64,000 nucleotides of DNA from Bacteroidales bacterium (GTDB taxonomy: Bacteria > Bacteroidota > Bacteroidia > Bacteroidales > GCA-2748055), in NCBI GenBank assembly GCA_021738565.1, contig JAIPBT010000011.1:1-64000 (forward strand), written 5' to 3'. Under the pieces are notes generated by a model. The model searched no databases. It was not told the DNA's origin and worked only from the letters and a program-made list of their open reading frames with translations. Both the position numbers and the translations under genes were made by a program. Shown one piece after another: positions 20,517 through 31,633 of this stretch (the first letter of the stretch is position 1; each line of letters opens with the position of its first letter).

Positions 20517-20621
20517 CAGTAACCAGCAACCAGTAACCAGCAACCAGTAACCAGCAACCAGTAACCAGCAACCAGTAACCAGCAACCAGTAACCAGCAAC
20601 CAGTAACCAGCAACCAGTAAC
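20517..20621. repeat. 14-bp tandem repeat, about 7.5 copies
   Basis: CAGTAACCAGCAAC is repeated without error over about 105 bp. Open frames through it encode only GYWLLVTGCWLLVA-type periodic peptides and are not genes. The lack of divergence between units suggests recent slippage. It lies 70 bp after dusB and 80 bp before the 3' end of the convergent RraA-like gene. Confidence 0.9.
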
Positions 20622-20703
20622 CCACCTACGCTAAAACTCCGGAAAACAAGGCCAGCAACAAGTTACATTTCACCCGTTTACCTGGTCCCCAAGTCTCCCC
20701 ATG

Positions 20704-21679: not shown

Positions 21680-23005
21680 TTATGGCCTCACCCCCGGCCC
21701 CTCTCCATGTTGAGAGGGGTGTGAGGTGTGGGTATCTTTTGGCTGCCGGTCCCGCCAGTAGGTGGCCAGCGAGGAGCCGGTGATGTTCATCATGGGGCCG
21801 AATACCGCGGGTGCTAGTCCGATGGTTGCCACCCTTCCCATCTCCAGCGCGATCCCTGATGCCAGACCTCCGTTTTGCATGCCCACCTCGAGGGCGATGG
21901 TCCGGCACGATTTTTCATCCATTCTGAACAACCTGCAGATCCAGTAGCCCAGGGTATACCCTGTTGCGTTGTGGAGCAGACAGGCAAATATCAGGAGCAA
22001 ACCGATGTCCATCAGGCTGTCCCTTCCTGCGGCGGTGATCACAACGATGATGAGACCGATTCCGGCCATAGATATGAAAGACATCAGCTTATCAAGGTAT
22101 TCCTTGCTATCCCGGGCAAGATATTTAAATGCCAGGCCCAATCCAACCGGCAATAAAAGGAACCAGGCAATATCCTTCGCGAGTCTGACAAGGGTCTCGT
22201 TCATTGAATGATCCTGTGTAAGATAAAAAATTGCGTTCTTACCTATTATGATAAAACCGTAAACCAGCACCTGGATCCATATTCCTTTTTTAGAATCCTT
22301 CCCGTAAGCAATGGAATTGAACATGAGTCCGGCCACGATGGGCAATATGACTATATTGATTATACTGAGCATCATCGACCAGAAATCAATGGGGACGAAC
22401 TGGCCAGCGAGCAGTTTCATCAATGAAGGTGTGATGAGTGGCGCCAGCATGGTGGCAAAGGCGGTCAGCGTAACCGAGAGCGCCAGGTTTGCCCTGGCTA
22501 TGAACGACATCACATTGGAGGCCAGTCCGCTGGGAGACGAACCAACGAGAATAATACCTGCAGCGATCTCCGGTGGAAAGCCAAAGGTGGTGGCGATGGT
22601 GAATCCGACAATGGGCATGATGGTAAACTGAAGAGAAAGACCGATGAGCACCCCCGTGGGCATTTTTACCACCCCGGCGAAATCCCGGTAACTCATCTGC
22701 GATCCCATACCAAACATGATGATCTGTAAAAGGGGCACGATGGTGGCTTTCAGTTCAAATTCGCCCCACCTGATGAACAGGTCGGGGTAGAACATGGCGA
22801 TGGTAACTGCAGAGAAGATCATGATCGTGTATGAAAATCCCCTGAAAAACTGGTGACCCCTAACACCAAAGGCAAGCAATACAAAGAATGCGACCATGGA
22901 AGGCCCTGAAAAAGATGTCATTCCAGCTATTAAAGACACAAGGAAAATAATGAGTGCGATCCCGGAAAGAATAAGCAGGACCTTGTAAATACTGCTTTTT
23001 TGCAT
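21680..23005 (-). CDS. Bile acid:sodium symporter (BASS) family transporter
   Basis: A 441-residue ten-helix carrier. The conserved GMGSQMSYRDF, GFPPEIAAGIILVGSSPSGLASNV and EVGMQNGGLASGIAL blocks mark the BASS fold with its crossed sodium-site helices. The name does not fix the substrate: characterised members carry pyruvate, pantoate, taurocholate or other organic acids with sodium. ATG 23005 (MQKSSIYKV) is chosen over 23131, which adds 42 non-conserved residues. The last ~16 residues (HTSHPSQHGEGPGVRP) are encoded by a palindromic intergenic repeat, so the C terminus has been extended or replaced by repeat sequence. Confidence 0.85.
   Translation of the reverse strand: MQKSSIYKVLLILSGIALIIFLVSLIAGMTSFSGPSMVAFFVLLAFGVRGHQFFRGFSYTIMIFSAVTIAMFYPDLFIRWGEFELKATIVPLLQIIMFGMGSQMSYRDFAGVVKMPTGVLIGLSLQFTIMPIVGFTIATTFGFPPEIAAGIILVGSSPSGLASNVMSFIARANLALSVTLTAFATMLAPLITPSLMKLLAGQFVPIDFWSMMLSIINIVILPIVAGLMFNSIAYGKDSKKGIWIQVLVYGFIIIGKNAIFYLTQDHSMNETLVRLAKDIAWFLLLPVGLGLAFKYLARDSKEYLDKLMSFISMAGIGLIIVVITAAGRDSLMDIGLLLIFACLLHNATGYTLGYWICRLFRMDEKSCRTIALEVGMQNGGLASGIALEMGRVATIGLAPAVFGPMMNITGSSLATYWRDRQPKDTHTSHPSQHGEGPGVRP
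21686..21726. repeat. CCTCACCCC palindromic repeat, copy 1 (inside the BASS 3' end)
   Basis: Outer arms CCTCAC (21686-21691) and GTGAGG (21721-21726) and inner arms CCCCTCTC (21698-21705) and GAGAGGGG (21712-21719) form a long hairpin. A second copy lies at 24785-24831. It encodes the tail of the transporter and may end its transcript. Confidence 0.75.
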
Positions 23006-23310: not shown

Positions 23311-24705
23311 ATGAAAAAGGAAAAAGCAATTCAAAAAGCAACAGACAACAGGAGGACATTTTTAAAAAAGGCCGGTCTTGGGGGCCTTGGACTTGGAGCA
23401 CTTCTCCACTCGGAAGTCGGGGAACAAATTGACTATCTTACACAGGGCGTCAGCAGGCATTCCGGTCCGTCCGACCTGAAGATCACAGATCTAAGAATAG
23501 CCGAGGTCGGCAGGGTGCCTATTGTAAAAATATATACCAACCAGGATGTTTACGGTCTTGGTGACGTGAGGGACGGTGCCGACAAGCGGTATGCACTGAT
23601 GCTCAAGAGCAGGATCCTGGGAGAAAATCCCTGCAATGTTGAGAAGATATTCAGGATCATCAAGCAGTTTGGAGGTCATGCCCGGCAGGGAGGAGGCGTA
23701 TCAGGAGTTGAGATGGCGCTGTGGGACCTGACCGGTAAGGTATATGGCGTCCCGGTTTATCAATTGCTTGGAGGAAAATACCGGGATAAAGTAAGGATCT
23801 ATGTAGACACACCCACGGTGAAAGATCCTGTTAGGTTTGCCAAACGTATGAAAGCAAGGGCTGACCAGGGTTTTACAATCATGAAGATGGATATCGGTAT
23901 CGGACTGATTAAAGATATACCGGGTACGCTGACCAACACAAGCCCGTGGGGAGAATTGCACGGTTGGCAACAGGTTGACCAGTCATACAGCGACACGATG
24001 CACCAGTTTACCAGGGTACAGATCACGGAGAAAGGAATTGCAGAAATGGTAAAATATGTTGCTGCCATGCGCGAGGAGGTTGGTTATGAGATACCGGTGG
24101 GCATCGACCACCTCGGACACATGGGGGTAAACAGCATGATCAGGCTCGGACAGGCCTTTGAGAAATACAATATAGCCTGGATGGAGGACTTGATCCCATG
24201 GCAATACCATGATCACTGGAAGGAGATATCCAGGTCGATCAATGTACCCACGCTTACCGGGGAAGACATCTACCTGAAAGAAGGTTTCCGCGACCTGATT
24301 GAGAACAGGGCCGTGGACATTGTCCAACCGGATCCGGTCACGGCAGGCGGATACCTTGAAACAAAAAAGATAGGCGACTTTGCCCAGGAAAATGGTATCG
24401 CCATGGCACTGCACCATGCTTCTTCACCGGTTACCTTCCTTGGATGTGTCCATGCGGCTGCTGCCACTGAGAATTTTATTGCCCTTGAACACCATTCCGT
24501 TGACAACCCCTGGTGGGAGGACCTGGTCACCGGGATAGAAAAACCATTTGTAAAGGACGGTTATGTTACGGTTCCTGAAAAACCTGGTGTTGGTGTGGAA
24601 TTGAATGAGGATGCAGTGAAAGAACACCTGAAGAAGGGAGAGGAATTCTTTGCACCTACAGATGAGTGGAACGAGAATGTGAGCTGGGACAGGTTGTGGT
24701 CGTGA
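23311..24705 (+). CDS. Enolase-superfamily (mandelate racemase/MLE-like) protein with Tat signal
   Basis: A 464-residue protein with a twin-arginine signal (DNRRTFLKKAGLGGLGLGAL, about 12-31). The capping domain is at about 50-160 and the barrel at about 175-420. Metal ligands fit Asp in VGIDHLGH, Glu in WMEDLIPW and Glu in TGEDIYL; DIVQPDPVTAGG and ALHHASSPV follow as in sugar-acid dehydratases such as D-galactonate dehydratase relatives. KMDIGIG is in place of the usual KxK. It is likely an acid-sugar dehydratase or racemase acting in the periplasm, paired with the divergent transporter and RraA-like protein. The exact substrate cannot be read. Confidence 0.8.
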   Translation: MKKEKAIQKATDNRRTFLKKAGLGGLGLGALLHSEVGEQIDYLTQGVSRHSGPSDLKITDLRIAEVGRVPIVKIYTNQDVYGLGDVRDGADKRYALMLKSRILGENPCNVEKIFRIIKQFGGHARQGGGVSGVEMALWDLTGKVYGVPVYQLLGGKYRDKVRIYVDTPTVKDPVRFAKRMKARADQGFTIMKMDIGIGLIKDIPGTLTNTSPWGELHGWQQVDQSYSDTMHQFTRVQITEKGIAEMVKYVAAMREEVGYEIPVGIDHLGHMGVNSMIRLGQAFEKYNIAWMEDLIPWQYHDHWKEISRSINVPTLTGEDIYLKEGFRDLIENRAVDIVQPDPVTAGGYLETKKIGDFAQENGIAMALHHASSPVTFLGCVHAAAATENFIALEHHSVDNPWWEDLVTGIEKPFVKDGYVTVPEKPGVGVELNEDAVKEHLKKGEEFFAPTDEWNENVSWDRLWS

Positions 24706-24784: not shown

Positions 24785-24831
24785 CCTCACCCCCGTCCCC
24801 TCTCCACATGGAGAGGGGTGAAGGGGTGAGG
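24785..24831. repeat. CCTCACCCC palindromic repeat, copy 2
   Basis: CCTCACCCC (24785-24793) pairs with GGGGTGAGG (24823-24831), and CCCCTCTCCA (24797-24806) with TGGAGAGGGG (24809-24818). It is a near-complete hairpin of the same family as 21686-21726 and could end the enolase transcript. Confidence 0.75.
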
Positions 24832-24835
24832 TAAG

Positions 24836-24873
24836 AATATATATATATAAATCACTATATAAATATATATATT
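24836..24873. repeat. AT-rich palindromic element, copy 2 (reverse)
   Basis: The reverse complement shares a ~20-bp core with the element at 9453-9490, including TTTATATAGTGA. It contributes the last codons and stop of the adjacent mpl fragment. Confidence 0.6.
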
Positions 24874-24990
24874 AATCTAACGATTTCATTGGCAATCATT
24901 TGCATGTCAAGGCCGGAGAAATTCCCCGGGGACATCAGAAGATAGACGCCTTCATCGTTCAGGCGGGTAATATGTTCCTGTAATTCGTTA
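24855..24990 (-). pseudogene. Fragment of a diverged mpl 3' end
   Basis: About 40 codons read leftward as LYNELQEHITRLNDEGVYLL, then MSPGNFSGLDMQMIANEIV, clearly homologous to the end of Mpl encoded at 26146-27498 (SINGFTEGGIYLFMSSGNFSGLDIKLIAES). Protein identity is roughly half, too low for a recent copy of the neighbour, so it came from a diverged mpl or is an old duplicate. The fragment starts right after the stop of the secreted unknown gene and ends in the AT-rich palindrome. It has no start of its own and is not expected to be functional. Confidence 0.75.
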
Positions 24991-25002
24991 TACAATAAGT
25001 GT

Positions 25003-26094
25003 TTACCTAATACCGCCTGTTTTAAAGTCCGGGGCAAGAGGCATACGCGGGGTGCCACCTCCCCCGACAGAGTTTGGTGTGTTGTTATCGACCACATGCA
25101 GGTTTTGGAAGATCCGGTCCATATCCCTTGCCCAGGGGGTATCCTTCGATTTTTCCGTGAATGTAAATCCCCAGTTATTTTCGAATTCATCACTGAATCT
25201 GCCTTCGGGCGACCATTCGGTTATTATCGCATATACGTCCCATGCGGTATCATCAACCACATAGGCCCCGTAGTCCTGGAAGGCCCGGGCAAGGATACGT
25301 CCGGGAGTGGTTTCAAATCCCATGGCGTCGAGGTCCATATCTGCAGGAAGAGCCAGAAGTGCACCCATTCTGCATGCTTTAACCGGGTCCTTTCTTTCGG
25401 TCCCGTAATTACCTTCAGCATAACCGTCGGATTGTTTGGCAGGCCACCTGAATCCCCGGGTTTCTTTATCATAGTAAAAATTTTTCTTCCCAAACAGGTT
25501 TACTTTCAGGACATGCCGTACAGGACCGGAACCCGGGGTAAGTTCCCCGATCCGCAAAGCACCGCCAATGGCGGAAAGTCCTGATCCCCCGTGGGCGCCG
25601 TACATTCCATCGCCATAAAGGTCATTATCTGTTGGCCGGGTCAATGAGGTAGCAACAGGATCCTGGGTGCAGTGTGCAAAGGGCTGGGTCTGTTTGATGG
25701 TCCTGCCATCCGGCATCAGAACTGCCAGTCCGCTGTTTGGCGTAAGACCATCCCAGGTATCCGGACTCACAATAAAATCATGTGGTATCGGGGCACTGAA
25801 AAGCAATTCACCTTCGGGCTCGCACCGGTTCTTGTTGCGGTTCCAGGCGGCGGTATTCAGAAAAATATCCATCATTTTTGCCTCCGGTTTTAACACAATG
25901 ATGTCTTCATCAATAGTCATTCCCATGGCTTCGGCACGCTGGATGTGTGCGTGTACATATGCAGCTTCCGAACCTACAGGGATGTTCCAGATTGATTTTT
26001 TGGAAAAAGGCCAGGAGCAAGCATCCCTTGTCTCTTGACCCGAAATAAGTAAGGTGCAAGAGAATAACAAACAGGTAATAATCAGTGTTTTCAT
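25003..26094 (-). CDS. Secreted protein of unknown function
   Basis: A 363-residue exported protein with a signal peptide at about 1-21 (LIITCLLFSCTLLISGQ). The mature part begins ETRDACSWPFSKKSIWNIPVG, and has GLAVLMPDGRTIKQTQPF, a Gly-rich YGDGMYGAHGGSGLSAIGG segment and GALLALPADMDLDAMGFETTPG. I have seen this CSWPFS..SIWN pattern in secreted proteins but know no function; the Trp and Gly content suits a beta-rich, perhaps carbohydrate-active fold. ATG 26094 is chosen over 26139 because the signal starts there. It sits between mpl and an orphan mpl 3' fragment, which suggests insertion as a unit. Confidence 0.7.
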   Translation of the reverse strand: MKTLIITCLLFSCTLLISGQETRDACSWPFSKKSIWNIPVGSEAAYVHAHIQRAEAMGMTIDEDIIVLKPEAKMMDIFLNTAAWNRNKNRCEPEGELLFSAPIPHDFIVSPDTWDGLTPNSGLAVLMPDGRTIKQTQPFAHCTQDPVATSLTRPTDNDLYGDGMYGAHGGSGLSAIGGALRIGELTPGSGPVRHVLKVNLFGKKNFYYDKETRGFRWPAKQSDGYAEGNYGTERKDPVKACRMGALLALPADMDLDAMGFETTPGRILARAFQDYGAYVVDDTAWDVYAIITEWSPEGRFSDEFENNWGFTFTEKSKDTPWARDMDRIFQNLHVVDNNTPNSVGGGGTPRMPLAPDFKTGGIR

Positions 26095-26145
26095 GTGTTC
26101 AGGTTTAAATTCATTATATTTTGATATTACTGTTGTCAACTCAAG

Positions 26146-27498
26146 TTACGTACCCGTGATCGATTCCGCAATTAATTTGATATCCAATCCTGAAAAATTC
26201 CCCGAGGACATGAAGAGGTAAATTCCTCCTTCAGTGAATCCGTTGATACTATTCAGTAACTCCTTCTGATCATTGATCACCTCGAGTTTTTCGTCGTGGA
26301 AGCATGCTTTTACAAATTCTAATTCCAACGGCGGGAATTTTTTATGTTTCAGCACTTCCGGGTTGAAAAATACGAAACCCCGGTCGGCAGCGTTCATGGT
26401 TCCTTCGTACTGGGGAAGAAAATCCTTGTTCAGGCTGCTGAATGTGTGAAGTTCGAGGATGGCGGTGATCTGCTCATTCGGAAATGTCTCCCTGAAACTC
26501 TCAAGGGTGGCTTTCACTTTCGATGGTGCATGGGCGAAATCAAAAAACACTTTTTTTGTTTCAGAAGCAGCCATTAGTTGTTGCCTTTTTGAAGCTCCCC
26601 TGAATGAGGGGATGGCTTCATAGAACAGTTCATCGTCCAGTCCAAGTTCCCTGCAAACCATCAATGCGGCTGATATATTCTGCATGTTGTGGTTTCCAAA
26701 TACCGAAACCGGGATCTTTTGTTCCTGGCCTGACAGGAAGGTTTTTCCCTGCTCGATACTGTATTCATGGGCTTGGTAGGAAAACAGTCTGCACTTTATA
26801 TTCCCGGTAATAGCCTTTAGGTGCTGATCGTTTTCGTACCAGAAAAGTTTTCCATTTTCCGGTATCGACCGGGCAAATATTTCAAATTGCCGGACGTAAT
26901 CTTCAATGGAAGGGAAGACGTTCATGTGGTCCCATGCTATACCTGTAATAACTGCCACATGCGGATGATACAAGTGAAACTTGGGCCTGGGATCAACGGG
27001 GGAGGAGAGGTATTCATCTCCTTCCAGGATAACTACCGGTGCATCTTCGGTCAGTTTCACCATGGTGTCAAACCCCTCCAGTTGTGAGCCGACCATGTAG
27101 TCAAACGAACAATGGTTGTACCACAACACATGCATCACCATGGAAGTAACCGTGGTTTTTCCATGACTCCCGGCAATTACCACCCTTTTCTTTTCTTTGC
27201 TCTGTTCAAAGATATATTCAGGGAAGGACCAGATTTTTATCCCCAGTTCCTGCGCCCGGAGCAGTTCCGGGTTGTTTTTTTTCGCATGCATGCCAAGGAT
27301 CACCCCGTCGAGTTCGGGAGTGATCCGCGCCGGGTCCCAGCCCTTCTTCTCCGGCAGCAGTCCGTATTCCTCCAGTCTTGACCTGGACGGCTCATATATT
27401 TCGTCATCAGATCCGGTAATCCTGATGCCTTTGTTATGCAGGGCAAGTGCCAGGTTGTGCATCACCGCACCGCCGATTGCAATAAGATGGATTTTCAT
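26146..27498 (-). CDS. mpl: UDP-N-acetylmuramate:tripeptide ligase Mpl (murein recycling)
   Basis: A 450-residue Mur-ligase-family enzyme that joins recycled L-Ala-D-Glu-meso-Dap to UDP-MurNAc in the cytoplasm. The N-terminal Rossmann domain begins MKIHLIAIGGAVMHNLALAL; the P-loop GSHGKTT lies at about 109-115; EGDEYLSSPVDPRPKF and HPHVAVITGIAWDHMNVF are characteristic of Mpl rather than MurC; the C-terminal domain has FDFAHAPSKVKATL. ATG 27498 replaces an upstream start at 27546 that adds 16 residues. The 3' end is the source of similarity to the fragment at 24855-24990. Confidence 0.92.
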   Translation of the reverse strand: MKIHLIAIGGAVMHNLALALHNKGIRITGSDDEIYEPSRSRLEEYGLLPEKKGWDPARITPELDGVILGMHAKKNNPELLRAQELGIKIWSFPEYIFEQSKEKKRVVIAGSHGKTTVTSMVMHVLWYNHCSFDYMVGSQLEGFDTMVKLTEDAPVVILEGDEYLSSPVDPRPKFHLYHPHVAVITGIAWDHMNVFPSIEDYVRQFEIFARSIPENGKLFWYENDQHLKAITGNIKCRLFSYQAHEYSIEQGKTFLSGQEQKIPVSVFGNHNMQNISAALMVCRELGLDDELFYEAIPSFRGASKRQQLMAASETKKVFFDFAHAPSKVKATLESFRETFPNEQITAILELHTFSSLNKDFLPQYEGTMNAADRGFVFFNPEVLKHKKFPPLELEFVKACFHDEKLEVINDQKELLNSINGFTEGGIYLFMSSGNFSGLDIKLIAESITGT

Positions 27499-27614: not shown

Positions 27615-29753
27615 TTACCCATAGGCTTCCAGCAATATCTCGAGGATCTTCTTTCCTGCTTCGGTGACCGATGTTCCAGGACCAAAAATAGCCATGACTC
27701 CTGCATTATACAGATATTCGTAATCCTGTGCGGGAATTACTCCGCCAACGATCACCATGATGTCTTCCCTGCCAAGTTTTTTGAGCTCTTTGAGGACGGC
27801 GGGAACAAGCGTTTTATGTCCGCCGGCGAGGGAGGAGATGCCCAGCAGATGCACATCATTTTCCACGGCCTGTTTTGCTGCTTCCCCGGGCGTCTGGAAA
27901 AGCGGTCCGATATCCACATCAAAACCTATGTCGGCATAGCCTGTTGATACAACTTTTGCCCCGCGGTCGTGACCATCCTGTCCCATTTTTGCGATCATGA
28001 TCCGCGGCTGTCTCCCTTGTTTTTCGGCAAATTCCCCTGCCAGTTTCCGTGCTTTTTTAAAGGCGCTGTCCTGACCTGATTCGGAGGAGTAAATTCCGGA
28101 TACGGAACGGATCACTGCCTTGTATCTTCCGCTGACTTTTTCGATGGCTGAAGAAATTTCTCCAAGGCTGGCCCTTTTGCGGGCTGCATCAACGGACAGT
28201 TCAAGGAGGTTTCTTTTGCCGCTTCGTGCAGCGCTGGTTATGGCATCCAGTGCAGAGTGAACTTCCTCGTTGTTGCGGTTTTGCCGGAGTTTTTTAAGGC
28301 GGGCGATCTGTGACCTCCTGACGGCAGAGTTGTCGACTTCCAGTATATCGAGCGGGTCCTGTTTGTCGAGCCTGTATTTATTGACCCCCACGATGGTGTC
28401 TTTGCCACTGTCGATCCTCGCCTGCTTGCGGGCGGCAGCTTCTTCAATGCGCATCTTGGGTATCCCGGTCTCAATGGCTCTTGCCATTCCCCCAAGTTTT
28501 TCGATCTCTTCGATGTGCTCCCAGGCACGGTGGGAAATTTCATGCGTAAGGGATTCCAGGTAATATGATCCGGCCCAGGGATCCACTGCCCTGCATATAT
28601 TGGTTTCATTCTGAAGGTAGATCTGTGTATTGCGGGCAATCCTTGCAGAGTAATCCGTGGGCAAAGCAATGGCTTCATCCAAAGCGTTGGTGTGGAGGGA
28701 CTGGGTATGTCCAAGCACTGCAGCGGTAGCTTCTATGCATGTACGGGCCACATTATTGAAGGGATCCTGTTCTGTGAGACTCCAGCCTGAAGTCTGCGAA
28801 TGTGTCCTCAGCGCCATGGATTTTGGATTCTTCGGATTGAACTGTTTAACCAGCCTGGCCCAAAGCATTCGGGCTGCGCGCATCTTTGCGATTTCCATAA
28901 AATGGTTCATACCGATGGCCCAGAAAAAGGAGATGCGCGGGGCAAATTTGTCTATATCTATGCCTGCAGCAATACCGGTCCTGAGGTATTCCAGTCCGTC
29001 GGCAAGGGTATAGGCAAGTTCGATATCTGCCGTGGCGCCCGCTTCCTGCATGTGGTATCCTGAAACGCTGATGGAGTTGAACCGGGGCATGTTTTTAGAA
29101 GTGTATTCAAAAATATCGGCAACGATCTTCATTGACATTTTTGGCGGATAGATGTAGGTATTCCGCACCATGAATTCCTTGAGGATGTCATTCTGAATTG
29201 TGCCGGTAAGCTCTTCAAGTTTTGCCCCCTGCTCCAGTCCGGCCACGATGTAAAAGGCCATAACCGGTAAAACGGCACCATTCATTGTCATGGAAACAGA
29301 CATCTCCTTCAGGGGTATCTGGTCGAAAAGTATCTCCATATCCAGAATTGAATCGACTGCTACCCCGGCCTTGCCAACATCACTTATCACCCTTTCGTGA
29401 TCGGAATCATACCCCCTGTGGGTAGGCAGGTCAAATGCAACGGATAAACCTTTTTGTCCTGCTGCCAGGTTGCGGCGGTAAAAGGCATTGGATTCCTCGG
29501 CCGTGGAAAATCCCGCGTACTGCCTGATGGTCCAGGGTCGCATTGCATACATGGCAGAATATGGTCCCCTGAGATACGGGGGTATTCCGGCAACGTAATC
29601 CAGGTGTTCCAGATCCAGTGTGTCTTTTTCAGAATAATATGGTTTTATGTCAATATGTTCCGGGGTCTTCCAGGTTGAAGTTGCATGTAGAAAAGTCTCA
29701 TTCCTGAAGGGCTTCAGCTCACTAAACGCTATGTTTTTAAAATCTGGTTTCAT
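27615..29753 (-). CDS. mutB: Methylmalonyl-CoA mutase, large (catalytic) subunit
   Basis: A 712-residue adenosylcobalamin enzyme that interconverts succinyl-CoA and (R)-methylmalonyl-CoA. The TIM-barrel substrate domain includes [21 protein letters not shown] and [13 protein letters not shown]; the C-terminal cobalamin domain has the base-off motif DGHDRG (Asp-x-His-x-x-Gly, about 591-597) followed by [13 protein letters not shown] and a GG near VIVGGVIP. Length and domain order are complete. It is the second gene of mutAB, 35 bp after mutA. With sdhCAB and fumC in this window it covers the middle of the succinate-to-propionate route. Confidence 0.96.
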
Positions 29754-29788
29754 GGTATGCAGCGGTAATATAATGTTCTATATGCTTG

Positions 29789-31633
29789 TCAGTCAAGGAT
29801 CCCAAGGATTGAATGAAATTTTTTGAGTTCATCCACGAGATTGCTTCTTACATGAATGAAATGTTCTATGCCCATTTTTTGCAGTTCCCCGACATGATCT
29901 TTTGGATATCCGGCAATTGCGATCTCTGCCGAACCGCTCAATGATTTTCGCACTGCCGGAACGTAGTGAATATATTCATCATCGGAACTGCACAGGACAA
30001 CAATTTCGGCACCAGACAGACGGGCTTCGGAGATTCTCTTTGCCGGATTTTTGTGGGTTGTATGATCTGTGATCCCGTATCCTGCGCAGGCAAAGAAGTT
30101 GCCGGCAAAGGTCGCCCTTGCTGCTGACCAGCCCGGATCTCCCAGTTTGAGCAGGAATACTTTCGGCCTAACCCCATGTTTTTCGGTCTGCAAACGAAGC
30201 GATTCAATTTCCCCGGCAATCCTGAATGGCTTTATGGGTTGGAGGGAGGTCTTGCTTGCGGATGTCTCTTCAGGGGGAGTGATCCCCTGACTTAACAGCA
30301 TTTCAGAAAATACCGGATATTGGTTCACACCTAAAATGGCCCGTTTTCCTGATGCTGCATCGATACGTTTTTTTTCCAGGGAGCCCGCTACCTGTTCCTG
30401 AATCCATCCTTTCTTAAACGCCTCAATAAATCCGCCTTTTTCTTCTGTTTCGGTAAAATACTCCCAAGCCTTTTTTGCCATGCTTTCAGCAATGTTTTCA
30501 ATGTAGTATGACCCTGCTCCCGGATCCAATACCTTGTTGAAATGGGATTCTTCCTTAAGAATGACCTGGATGTTCCTGGCAATCCTTGAAGAGAGTTCGC
30601 TTTTGCTGTCCGTCAGCACATCAAACGGCAATACCGTAATTGAATCACTTCCTCCGATACTTGCTGCCATTGTTTCTGTTGTGGTCCGGAGCATATTTAC
30701 ATTCGGATCATACAGGGTCAGGTTCCACGAAGCTGATCTTGAGTGGATGTGCATTGAAAATTGATCTTTTTCGATCCCCCATTCCCTGCAGATGGCCGAC
30801 CACAACCACCTGGCAGCCCTGAGTTTTGCAATTTCCATAAAATAATCAGGGCCTGTGGAATAACTGAAAAATATGGAGTCCACCGCCAGGGCGGGAGGGA
30901 TGTTAAGTTTTGACAGCCTGCTGATGTATTCGTTTGCCATGGCAAGGCTGAATCCGAGTTCCTGTGAAAGGGTCCCTCCCCCGTCCTGGAATATTCCTCC
31001 GTTGATTTGGATGATTTTCAAATTCCTGTATGTATCTGAGGTGGCCAGGATGATATCTGCCAGGTCTTCCAGGGCAGGCGTATCCAATACGCCTTTTGAT
31101 ACCATATCGCCCAGTGGTTCCAGTCCCAAAGAACCGTGTATTTTTTCCGCATCTGTTTTTTTGTCCTTCAGGAAGGATACAAAAGCATTAAAGAAGTTTT
31201 GAGGCTGACCGGCATTGTAAAAGTTGATTTCTGTTTTTTCAATATTGATGCCATCGAATAATTGTTCAAAGAATTTTTTGTCGGATGTACTTTGATCCAT
31301 AAGATCAATTCCCAGGGCATCCGCCCCGCGATCAATGGCCTGTCTCATTTTGCTGTTGACCTGATCAACTGCTCCATCGGTCTTGAAATCCTGCCTGATC
31401 TTCCAGTCGTTGTCTTCCTTCCCGGTAAAAATGGAGTTATTTTCGCCTGATTGTCTCACCTGCAGTGGTTCCAGATCCTCATGCATATAATAGGGATTGA
31501 TCTCAAAGCCTTCATCGGATCTCCAGACAAGTTTTTTATCAAAATCTGCACCTTTCAGGTCATCAATGATCTTGCTTTTCCAGGAAACTGAAGTAACCGG
31601 GGGGAATTCCTCGAACAATCTTTTCTTTTTCAT
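29789..31633 (-). CDS. mutA: Methylmalonyl-CoA mutase, small subunit
   Basis: A 614-residue partner of MutB with the same fold but no catalytic cobalamin site. The barrel contains RSDEGFEINPYYMHEDL and FSMHIHSRSASWNLTLYDPN; the C-terminal flavodoxin-like domain has LKLGDPGWSAARATFAGNFF where MutB has its DxHxxG, so the cobalamin-binding His is missing, as is normal for small subunits. It is the first gene of the mutAB operon, with 87 bp to the fumC stop upstream. No cobalamin riboswitch was recognised in that gap. Confidence 0.94.
   Translation of the reverse strand: MKKKRLFEEFPPVTSVSWKSKIIDDLKGADFDKKLVWRSDEGFEINPYYMHEDLEPLQVRQSGENNSIFTGKEDNDWKIRQDFKTDGAVDQVNSKMRQAIDRGADALGIDLMDQSTSDKKFFEQLFDGINIEKTEINFYNAGQPQNFFNAFVSFLKDKKTDAEKIHGSLGLEPLGDMVSKGVLDTPALEDLADIILATSDTYRNLKIIQINGGIFQDGGGTLSQELGFSLAMANEYISRLSKLNIPPALAVDSIFFSYSTGPDYFMEIAKLRAARWLWSAICREWGIEKDQFSMHIHSRSASWNLTLYDPNVNMLRTTTETMAASIGGSDSITVLPFDVLTDSKSELSSRIARNIQVILKEESHFNKVLDPGAGSYYIENIAESMAKKAWEYFTETEEKGGFIEAFKKGWIQEQVAGSLEKKRIDAASGKRAILGVNQYPVFSEMLLSQGITPPEETSASKTSLQPIKPFRIAGEIESLRLQTEKHGVRPKVFLLKLGDPGWSAARATFAGNFFACAGYGITDHTTHKNPAKRISEARLSGAEIVVLCSSDDEYIHYVPAVRKSLSGSAEIAIAGYPKDHVGELQKMGIEHFIHVRSNLVDELKKFHSILGILD

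Follow-up and report, generated by a model that had tools for sequence, protein, structure and literature searches.

Organization of the Locus

On the reverse strand of the stretch of DNA analysed here (the window, 64,000 nt from a Bacteroidales bacterium), two methylmalonyl-CoA mutase genes, mutA and mutB (27615–31633), are followed by an mpl-like Mur ligase gene, which runs from its ATG at 27498 to the stop at 26148–26146, and then, after 51 nt, by the ATG of a gene for a secreted protein (25003–26094), whose 363 codons occupy 26094–25006 and whose stop lies at 25005–25003. The row ends with a 37-codon remnant of an Mpl end (24876–24986, also on the − strand), the frame of which continues to a stop at 24855–24857, and a convergent enolase-superfamily gene on the + strand (23311–24705) forms the right flank. 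The name mpl is provisional for this ligase and is not to be taken as established, the gene staying below both curated cut-offs (226.7 bits for murC, with a cut-off of 335.1, and 185.9 bits for mpl TIGR01081, with a cut-off of 388.7), and the label "secreted" refers to a hydrophobic N-terminus judged by eye. No Rfam match was found in the window between 20 and 32 kb.

Besides these genes, the neighbourhood contains small repeats. A palindrome, CCCCTCTCC-N3/4-GGAGAGGGG, is located at 24797–24818, right beside the remnant, and again at 21698–21719; at two mismatches or fewer it occurs at six places in the genome and at none in the reversed control, forming a small repeat family. At 20517–20622 there is a tandem array of 7.6 copies of the 14-mer CAGTAACCAGCAAC, with 100% matches. 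A promoter of the form TTGACA-N15-TATAAT before the secreted gene (26113–26139, − strand) was considered and rejected: the window has two such motifs against 0.03 expected, but the genome as a whole has six against three in the reversed control, so there is no clear excess.

The window's own genome (G000) can be compared with two congeners that have mpl (G002 and G003); the fourth genome of the genus (G001, 68% complete) has no full mpl match, and the comparison of mpl within the genus rests on three species. Both flanks of the locus are syntenic with the congeners. In G002, mutA, mutB and mpl stand in the order of the window, followed by an unrelated gene on the opposite strand. In G003, mpl is followed by the gene of a 551-residue FAD oxidoreductase (PF12831; L040, 8557–10212), whose ATG overlaps the mpl stop, and then, second after mpl, by an enolase-type gene 88% identical to that of the window. 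That is to say, the gap between mpl and the enolase-type gene holds different whole genes, the secreted gene in G000 and the PF12831 gene in G003. The secreted gene is absent beside mpl in both congeners, and no mpl remnant was found beside mpl in either of them. The sequence-only reading of this DNA had proposed looking in relatives for an mpl without the secreted gene, and both congeners with mpl are such cases, so that nothing here shows the secreted gene to be ancestral at this place. G002 does have two partial relatives of it (40 and 44% identity); these lie apart from mpl, on contigs 4.5 and 4.3 kb long.

The Mosaic mpl Gene

The mpl gene of the window is a mosaic, with a break at codon 361–368. 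Codons 1–365 (26404–27498, − strand) are of the genus type, and in a quick tree of this head G000, G002 and G003 form one clade with a support of 100. Codons 366–450 with the stop (26146–26403, − strand) depart from the genus, and this tail is read as putatively foreign. Up to about codon 360, the mpl of G000 is about equally near to each congener as G002 and G003 are to one another; beyond that, in 45-codon blocks, the two congeners keep 73 and 61% between themselves, and G000 drops to 40–45%.

First of all, a change point was detected in G000 after residue 365 (p 0.004), and none in G002 and G003. The alignment behind it had 56 mpl rows, of which 30 were picked from the loci best matching the tail (24 rows) or the remnant (six rows), a selection that favours the break. 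L124 and L135 of the remnant search and four partial rows among the 29 from the search for mpl in the relatives were omitted, and the other loci of the remnant search were excluded as belonging to genomes already represented. The tests with G000, G002 and G003 only are free of this bias, with the cut at 365 taken from the change-point result. When the sites at which a single species stands apart from the other two are counted, that species is G000 at 33 of 91 before codon 365 and at 26 of 32 after it (Fisher 1.2e-5), and no comparable drop follows codon 365 when G002 or G003 is taken as the odd one out. Where G002 and G003 have the same residue, G000 agrees at 239/272 before the cut and 30/56 after it; at third positions shared by the two congeners, the figures are 113/187 and 16/42 (p 0.0099). 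Within the head, no 85-codon window falls below 0.75 for residues or below 0.405 for third positions, the third-position value of the tail being 0.381, so the protein signal of the tail lies far outside the range of the head and the third-position signal only just outside it. When the cut was left free in a maximum likelihood fit, the break fell at 367 (interval 361–368), and none of 1000 permutations did as well.

As for where the tail comes from, trees of its 85 codons reject G000 as sister of G002 or of G003 (p 0.0016 to 0.011) and place it best on their common stem. The tail is compatible with one clade of all three species (p 0.637; the tree constrained in this way is even better, by 4.8), so the head and tail trees, tried as proof of a foreign tail, were given up as such: a foreign origin stays putative, and the tail may instead have evolved faster. 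When only the last 37 codons are used, a sister position to G002 or G003 is also acceptable (p 0.06 to 0.28). The best database matches of the tail are in G241 and G610, which belong to other families, at 51%, with G003 and G002 at 42 and 44%; this 51% is also the best value obtained when the order (393 genomes) and the class (395 genomes) were searched, and no donor was found there. Judged from these sequences, the tail may derive from a lineage that left before the split of G002 and G003, or it may be fast-evolving, and no named outside group is shown as its source.

The Orphan 3′ End

The remnant peptide, ELQEHITRLNDEGVYLLMSPGNFSGLDMQMIANEIVR (24986–24876), lies in the frame 24855–25193 (− strand) and aligns with mpl residues 413–449. 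A search of the window's own genome with mpl recovers it (E 6.6e-4, 51% over 35 residues), so a chance match is unlikely, and the earlier description of an Mpl C-terminal fragment beside a secreted gene that itself abuts an intact mpl holds, at a length of 37 codons. Its best matches among the 393 genomes of the order are the mpl end of its own genome (29.2 bits) and that of G002 (27.6 bits). The fragment had also been judged too diverged for a fresh duplicate, which is borne out: compared with its own mpl end, 18 of 37 residues are identical, and codon positions 1, 2 and 3 are shared at 23/37, 30/37 and 13/37 (second against third position, p 1.2e-4). Since second positions are kept and third positions lost, the remnant and the mpl tail diverged mostly under protein selection, in two working genes.

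Compared with G002, the pattern over the three codon positions is flatter (20/36, 26/36 and 20/36; p 0.22), and compared with G003 it is not flat (18/36, 24/36 and 11/36). On sequence, the former would fit a congener-type end that has gone through a spell of decay and the latter does not, although 36 codons are few. At third positions the remnant shares 20/36 with G002, the mean over all rows except G002 being 32%. The remnant is identical to G002 at 17/36 residues and to G003 at 14/36, and these two are identical to each other at 23/36; if the remnant is native, it must therefore have decayed.

The position of the remnant in the tree depends on whether the present tail is included. Without this tail, the best place is the G002/G003 stem, ahead by 2.86 (DNA) and 1.13 (protein), which is not significant. 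With it, the best place is beside the own tail, ahead by 4.85 (DNA) and 1.69 (protein), and the stem remains acceptable (p 0.19 for DNA, 0.40 for protein). The sequence-only reading had named clustering of the fragment with the mpl of its own genome as evidence against itself; the second tree shows such clustering without significance and the first places the fragment with the congeners, and 37 codons are too few to settle the matter. Where G002 and G003 share a third position, the remnant agrees at 9/15 and the own tail at 4/15. From these third positions, the stem placement without the own tail and the conserved right flank beside the remnant, we lean towards the remnant, rather than the present tail, being the native end of mpl.

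Among the 226 genomes matching the tail, only G000 and G311 have two matches. G311 was considered as a second case of an orphan mpl end and dropped, its second match being a near-copy at a contig end (91.8% identical over 805 columns); its loci L189 and L190 are two contig ends with the same mpl end in each, probably a strain mixture in the bin.

The Secreted Protein and Its Family

Neither the secreted protein (the cargo) nor 27 members of its family have a match above the cut-off, the former against Pfam and NCBIfam and the latter against Pfam. The family is rare: it is present in 4/61 relatives and in 4/295 genomes of the order, the window's own genome being counted in both, and a scan of one genome per species (84,980 species) gave 32 loci (L053–L084). 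By their record titles, the homologues belong to Bacteroidota, Planctomycetota, Verrucomicrobia, Chloroflexi, Cyanobacteria, Paenibacillus and a Bacillota bin, but most of the records are bins, so that single titles may mislead. No mpl lies near the cargo in 35 loci, counting up to 6 kb on either side (1.5 kb for three of the loci). A search for mpl in 23 of the 32 genomes gave full-length matches of 47–55% in eight, together with one of 28%, and in the rest of the 23 partial or MurC-like matches or none.

Nine neighbours from five cargo loci were scanned and include GH10, alpha-galactosidase, GH3, GDSL lipase and others; at L048 a SusC relative follows the cargo relative, together with a SusD-like one recognized by eye. 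At L058 and L062 (3.5–7.1 kb), three adjacent genes of the cargo family stand in a row, with start motifs judged by eye. Judging by this family context, the cargo is probably a stand-alone glycan-active protein.

Whether the cargo might be a truncated gene that has lost a sorting tail was considered and dropped, because 17 of the 32 homologues have the same end point, some ten residues or less from a LAP-type motif; 10 continue, and 5 are cut or broken. The homologues at L053 and L054 terminate at FKK, directly followed by the stop. In the window, the usual C-terminus of the family (APxFK) stops and the ORF continues for five codons to TAA (24986–25023, − strand), ending in FKTGGIR, in letters also used by the frame of the remnant. 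The ORF of the cargo thus overruns the end of its family into letters of the remnant frame, and the right junction is abrupt, located at the very end of the cargo coding sequence.

The structure model of the cargo is confident (pLDDT 92.8), with residues 361–363 at pLDDT 51. A Foldseek search of the model against PDB gave nothing at E 0.001. When 278 chains were realigned to it, only four reached a Z of at least 2: two YuiC (2.5) and two MltA lytic transglycosylases, 2pnw (Z 5.1, over 183 residues) and 2pi8 (Z 5.0, over 188 residues). MltA is thus the top fold for the cargo model, although a Z of 5 is middling and the identity is 8–10%. MltA has a double-psi-barrel fold, and the model would make the cargo a candidate double-psi-barrel glycan-cutting enzyme, as a lead and not as a result, and the family may be an unnamed enzyme family. 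The family has a use of its own, apart from the history of the locus, as one without Pfam assignment that has glycosidase genes beside several of its loci.

Origin of the Arrangement

The preferred explanation, given a probability of about one half, is that a foreign mpl tail and the secreted gene were brought in by a crossover within mpl on one side and, on the other, by a non-homologous join downstream of the cargo, and that the old end was displaced in this way. The incoming piece of DNA would derive from an unsampled relative and would carry the end of the donor mpl and then the secreted-protein gene. One of its ends would have joined by homology in the conserved middle of the resident mpl, at about codon 365, which would be the cause of the break there; the other, just 3′ of the secreted coding sequence, would have joined without homology near codon 410. 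Resident codons 366–412 or thereabouts would have been lost in the process, and the last 37 pushed behind the cargo, where they would serve nothing, while mpl would have stayed whole because the foreign tail took the place of the resident one. Tail and cargo would thus have arrived together, and the old end would have been displaced in the same event. Of what the sequence-only reading proposed, entry of the secreted gene by recombination at the mpl 3′ end gains from the break at codon 361–368 and from the absence of the gene beside mpl in the two congeners, and an island using the gene end as its target is not supported, as set out below.

A less probable alternative, though the best placed of the rivals, is an old duplication, in which this lineage gained a second copy of mpl or of its 3′ end, decay left only 37 codons of that copy, and the secreted gene either was inserted between the two or travelled with the copy. 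The remnant does fall best beside the own tail once that tail is in the tree, and among single proteins it matches the own mpl best (18/37). However, third positions differ as much as they do between families (13/37 shared) with second positions kept (30/37), from which the duplicates would have had to stay working genes beyond the age of the genus; no genome among the matches listed (61 genomes) has two full copies of mpl, the tandem that the sequence-only reading had named as contrary evidence; and the break at codon 365 is left unexplained.

Slightly weaker is the proposal that the whole cassette of tail, cargo and remnant was built in another lineage and arrived ready-made by homologous recombination in both flanks. 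It would account for the closeness of remnant and tail to one another and for the distance of both from the congeners, but no such cassette has been seen, and mpl is present at 0/35 cargo loci. An unlikely course is one without any replacement, the tail of the window's mpl having evolved fast and cargo and remnant having come separately; this agrees with the tail clade that was not rejected, and is opposed by a drop that is sharp, also visible at third positions (p 0.0099) and confined to G000.

It is very improbable that an integrase-mediated island entered at the mpl 3′ end and restored the gene. The topology (whole gene, cargo, second 3′ end) fits, but no search favours it: there is a single cargo gene, of the three PF00589 genes in the genome none is on the contig of the window (C80), their contigs being C13, C66 and C78, no direct repeat of at least 14 connects the two ends, and some 45 codons separate the break, at about codon 365, from the codon at which the remnant begins (413), where an island would have both at the same codon. 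Least probable of all is an assembly chimera of a metagenome bin, for although the assembly is in 83 contigs, the two flanks have their matches in one and the same genus, in G003 too the right flank comes after mpl with one gene in between, and the two mpl ends are too dissimilar for a long common word.

A wider proposal is put forward only as a long shot: the mpl 3′ end would be a recurrent, integrase-free landing slot in this group of Bacteroidota, with the anchor in the conserved middle of the gene, the tail replaced and glycan-degradation cargo placed before the convergent enolase-type gene, and the cargo would belong to an unnamed double-psi-barrel (MltA-like) family cutting plant polysaccharides.

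Comparison with Known Systems

Integrative islands at gene 3′ ends leave a gene with a restored 3′ end and the displaced end at the far side. The locus differs from them in that its contig is without a tyrosine integrase, that there is no repeated core of at least 14, and that one gene only is involved; this insert, a single gene without a Pfam or NCBIfam match above the cut-off, carries no integrase.

With the minimal mobile element, as defined in the passages of PMC3082526 on that concept, the locus shares two conserved genes (mpl and the enolase type) with different whole genes between them in G000 and G003. The remnant and the mosaic flank gene of the window fall outside that definition, and the pattern comes from two genomes only.

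The displaced gene ends treated in the relevant parts of PMC5361080 and PMC2935791 are those of effector and Rhs genes. For Rhs, the sections on displaced C-terminal ends prefer a circular intermediate and describe the core regions within a locus as identical (PMC2935791). An old gene end behind a new end and intervening genes is common to the Rhs displacement and the window, whereas the window's remnant is without the stretch that the break would predict.

In the type VI secretion system (T6SS) of Vibrio, it has been proposed that the incoming piece anchors in a conserved upstream stretch, its other end joins illegitimately and the old 3′ end is shifted back, and such homology-facilitated illegitimate recombination is described as rare in experiments (PMC5361080). 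On the preferred explanation, the event in the window would be of this type, proposed there for displaced effector ends. The locus is unlike the Vibrio cases in that it concerns a housekeeping gene, the cargo is not known as a toxin, and the tail would have been replaced by a homologue and not by a new module. An old 3′ end behind the insert is common to both, and so would be an upstream homologous anchor and a downstream non-homologous join. If so, a housekeeping gene that exchanged its tail, gained a neighbour and left an old end behind would show that the effector/Rhs-type route also adds single metabolic genes. In summary, the locus appears to be a relic of DNA taken up in a way that is already known, a commonplace event that has left an informative scar, and the mosaic gene, the cargo and the orphan end together make a pattern that can be searched for.
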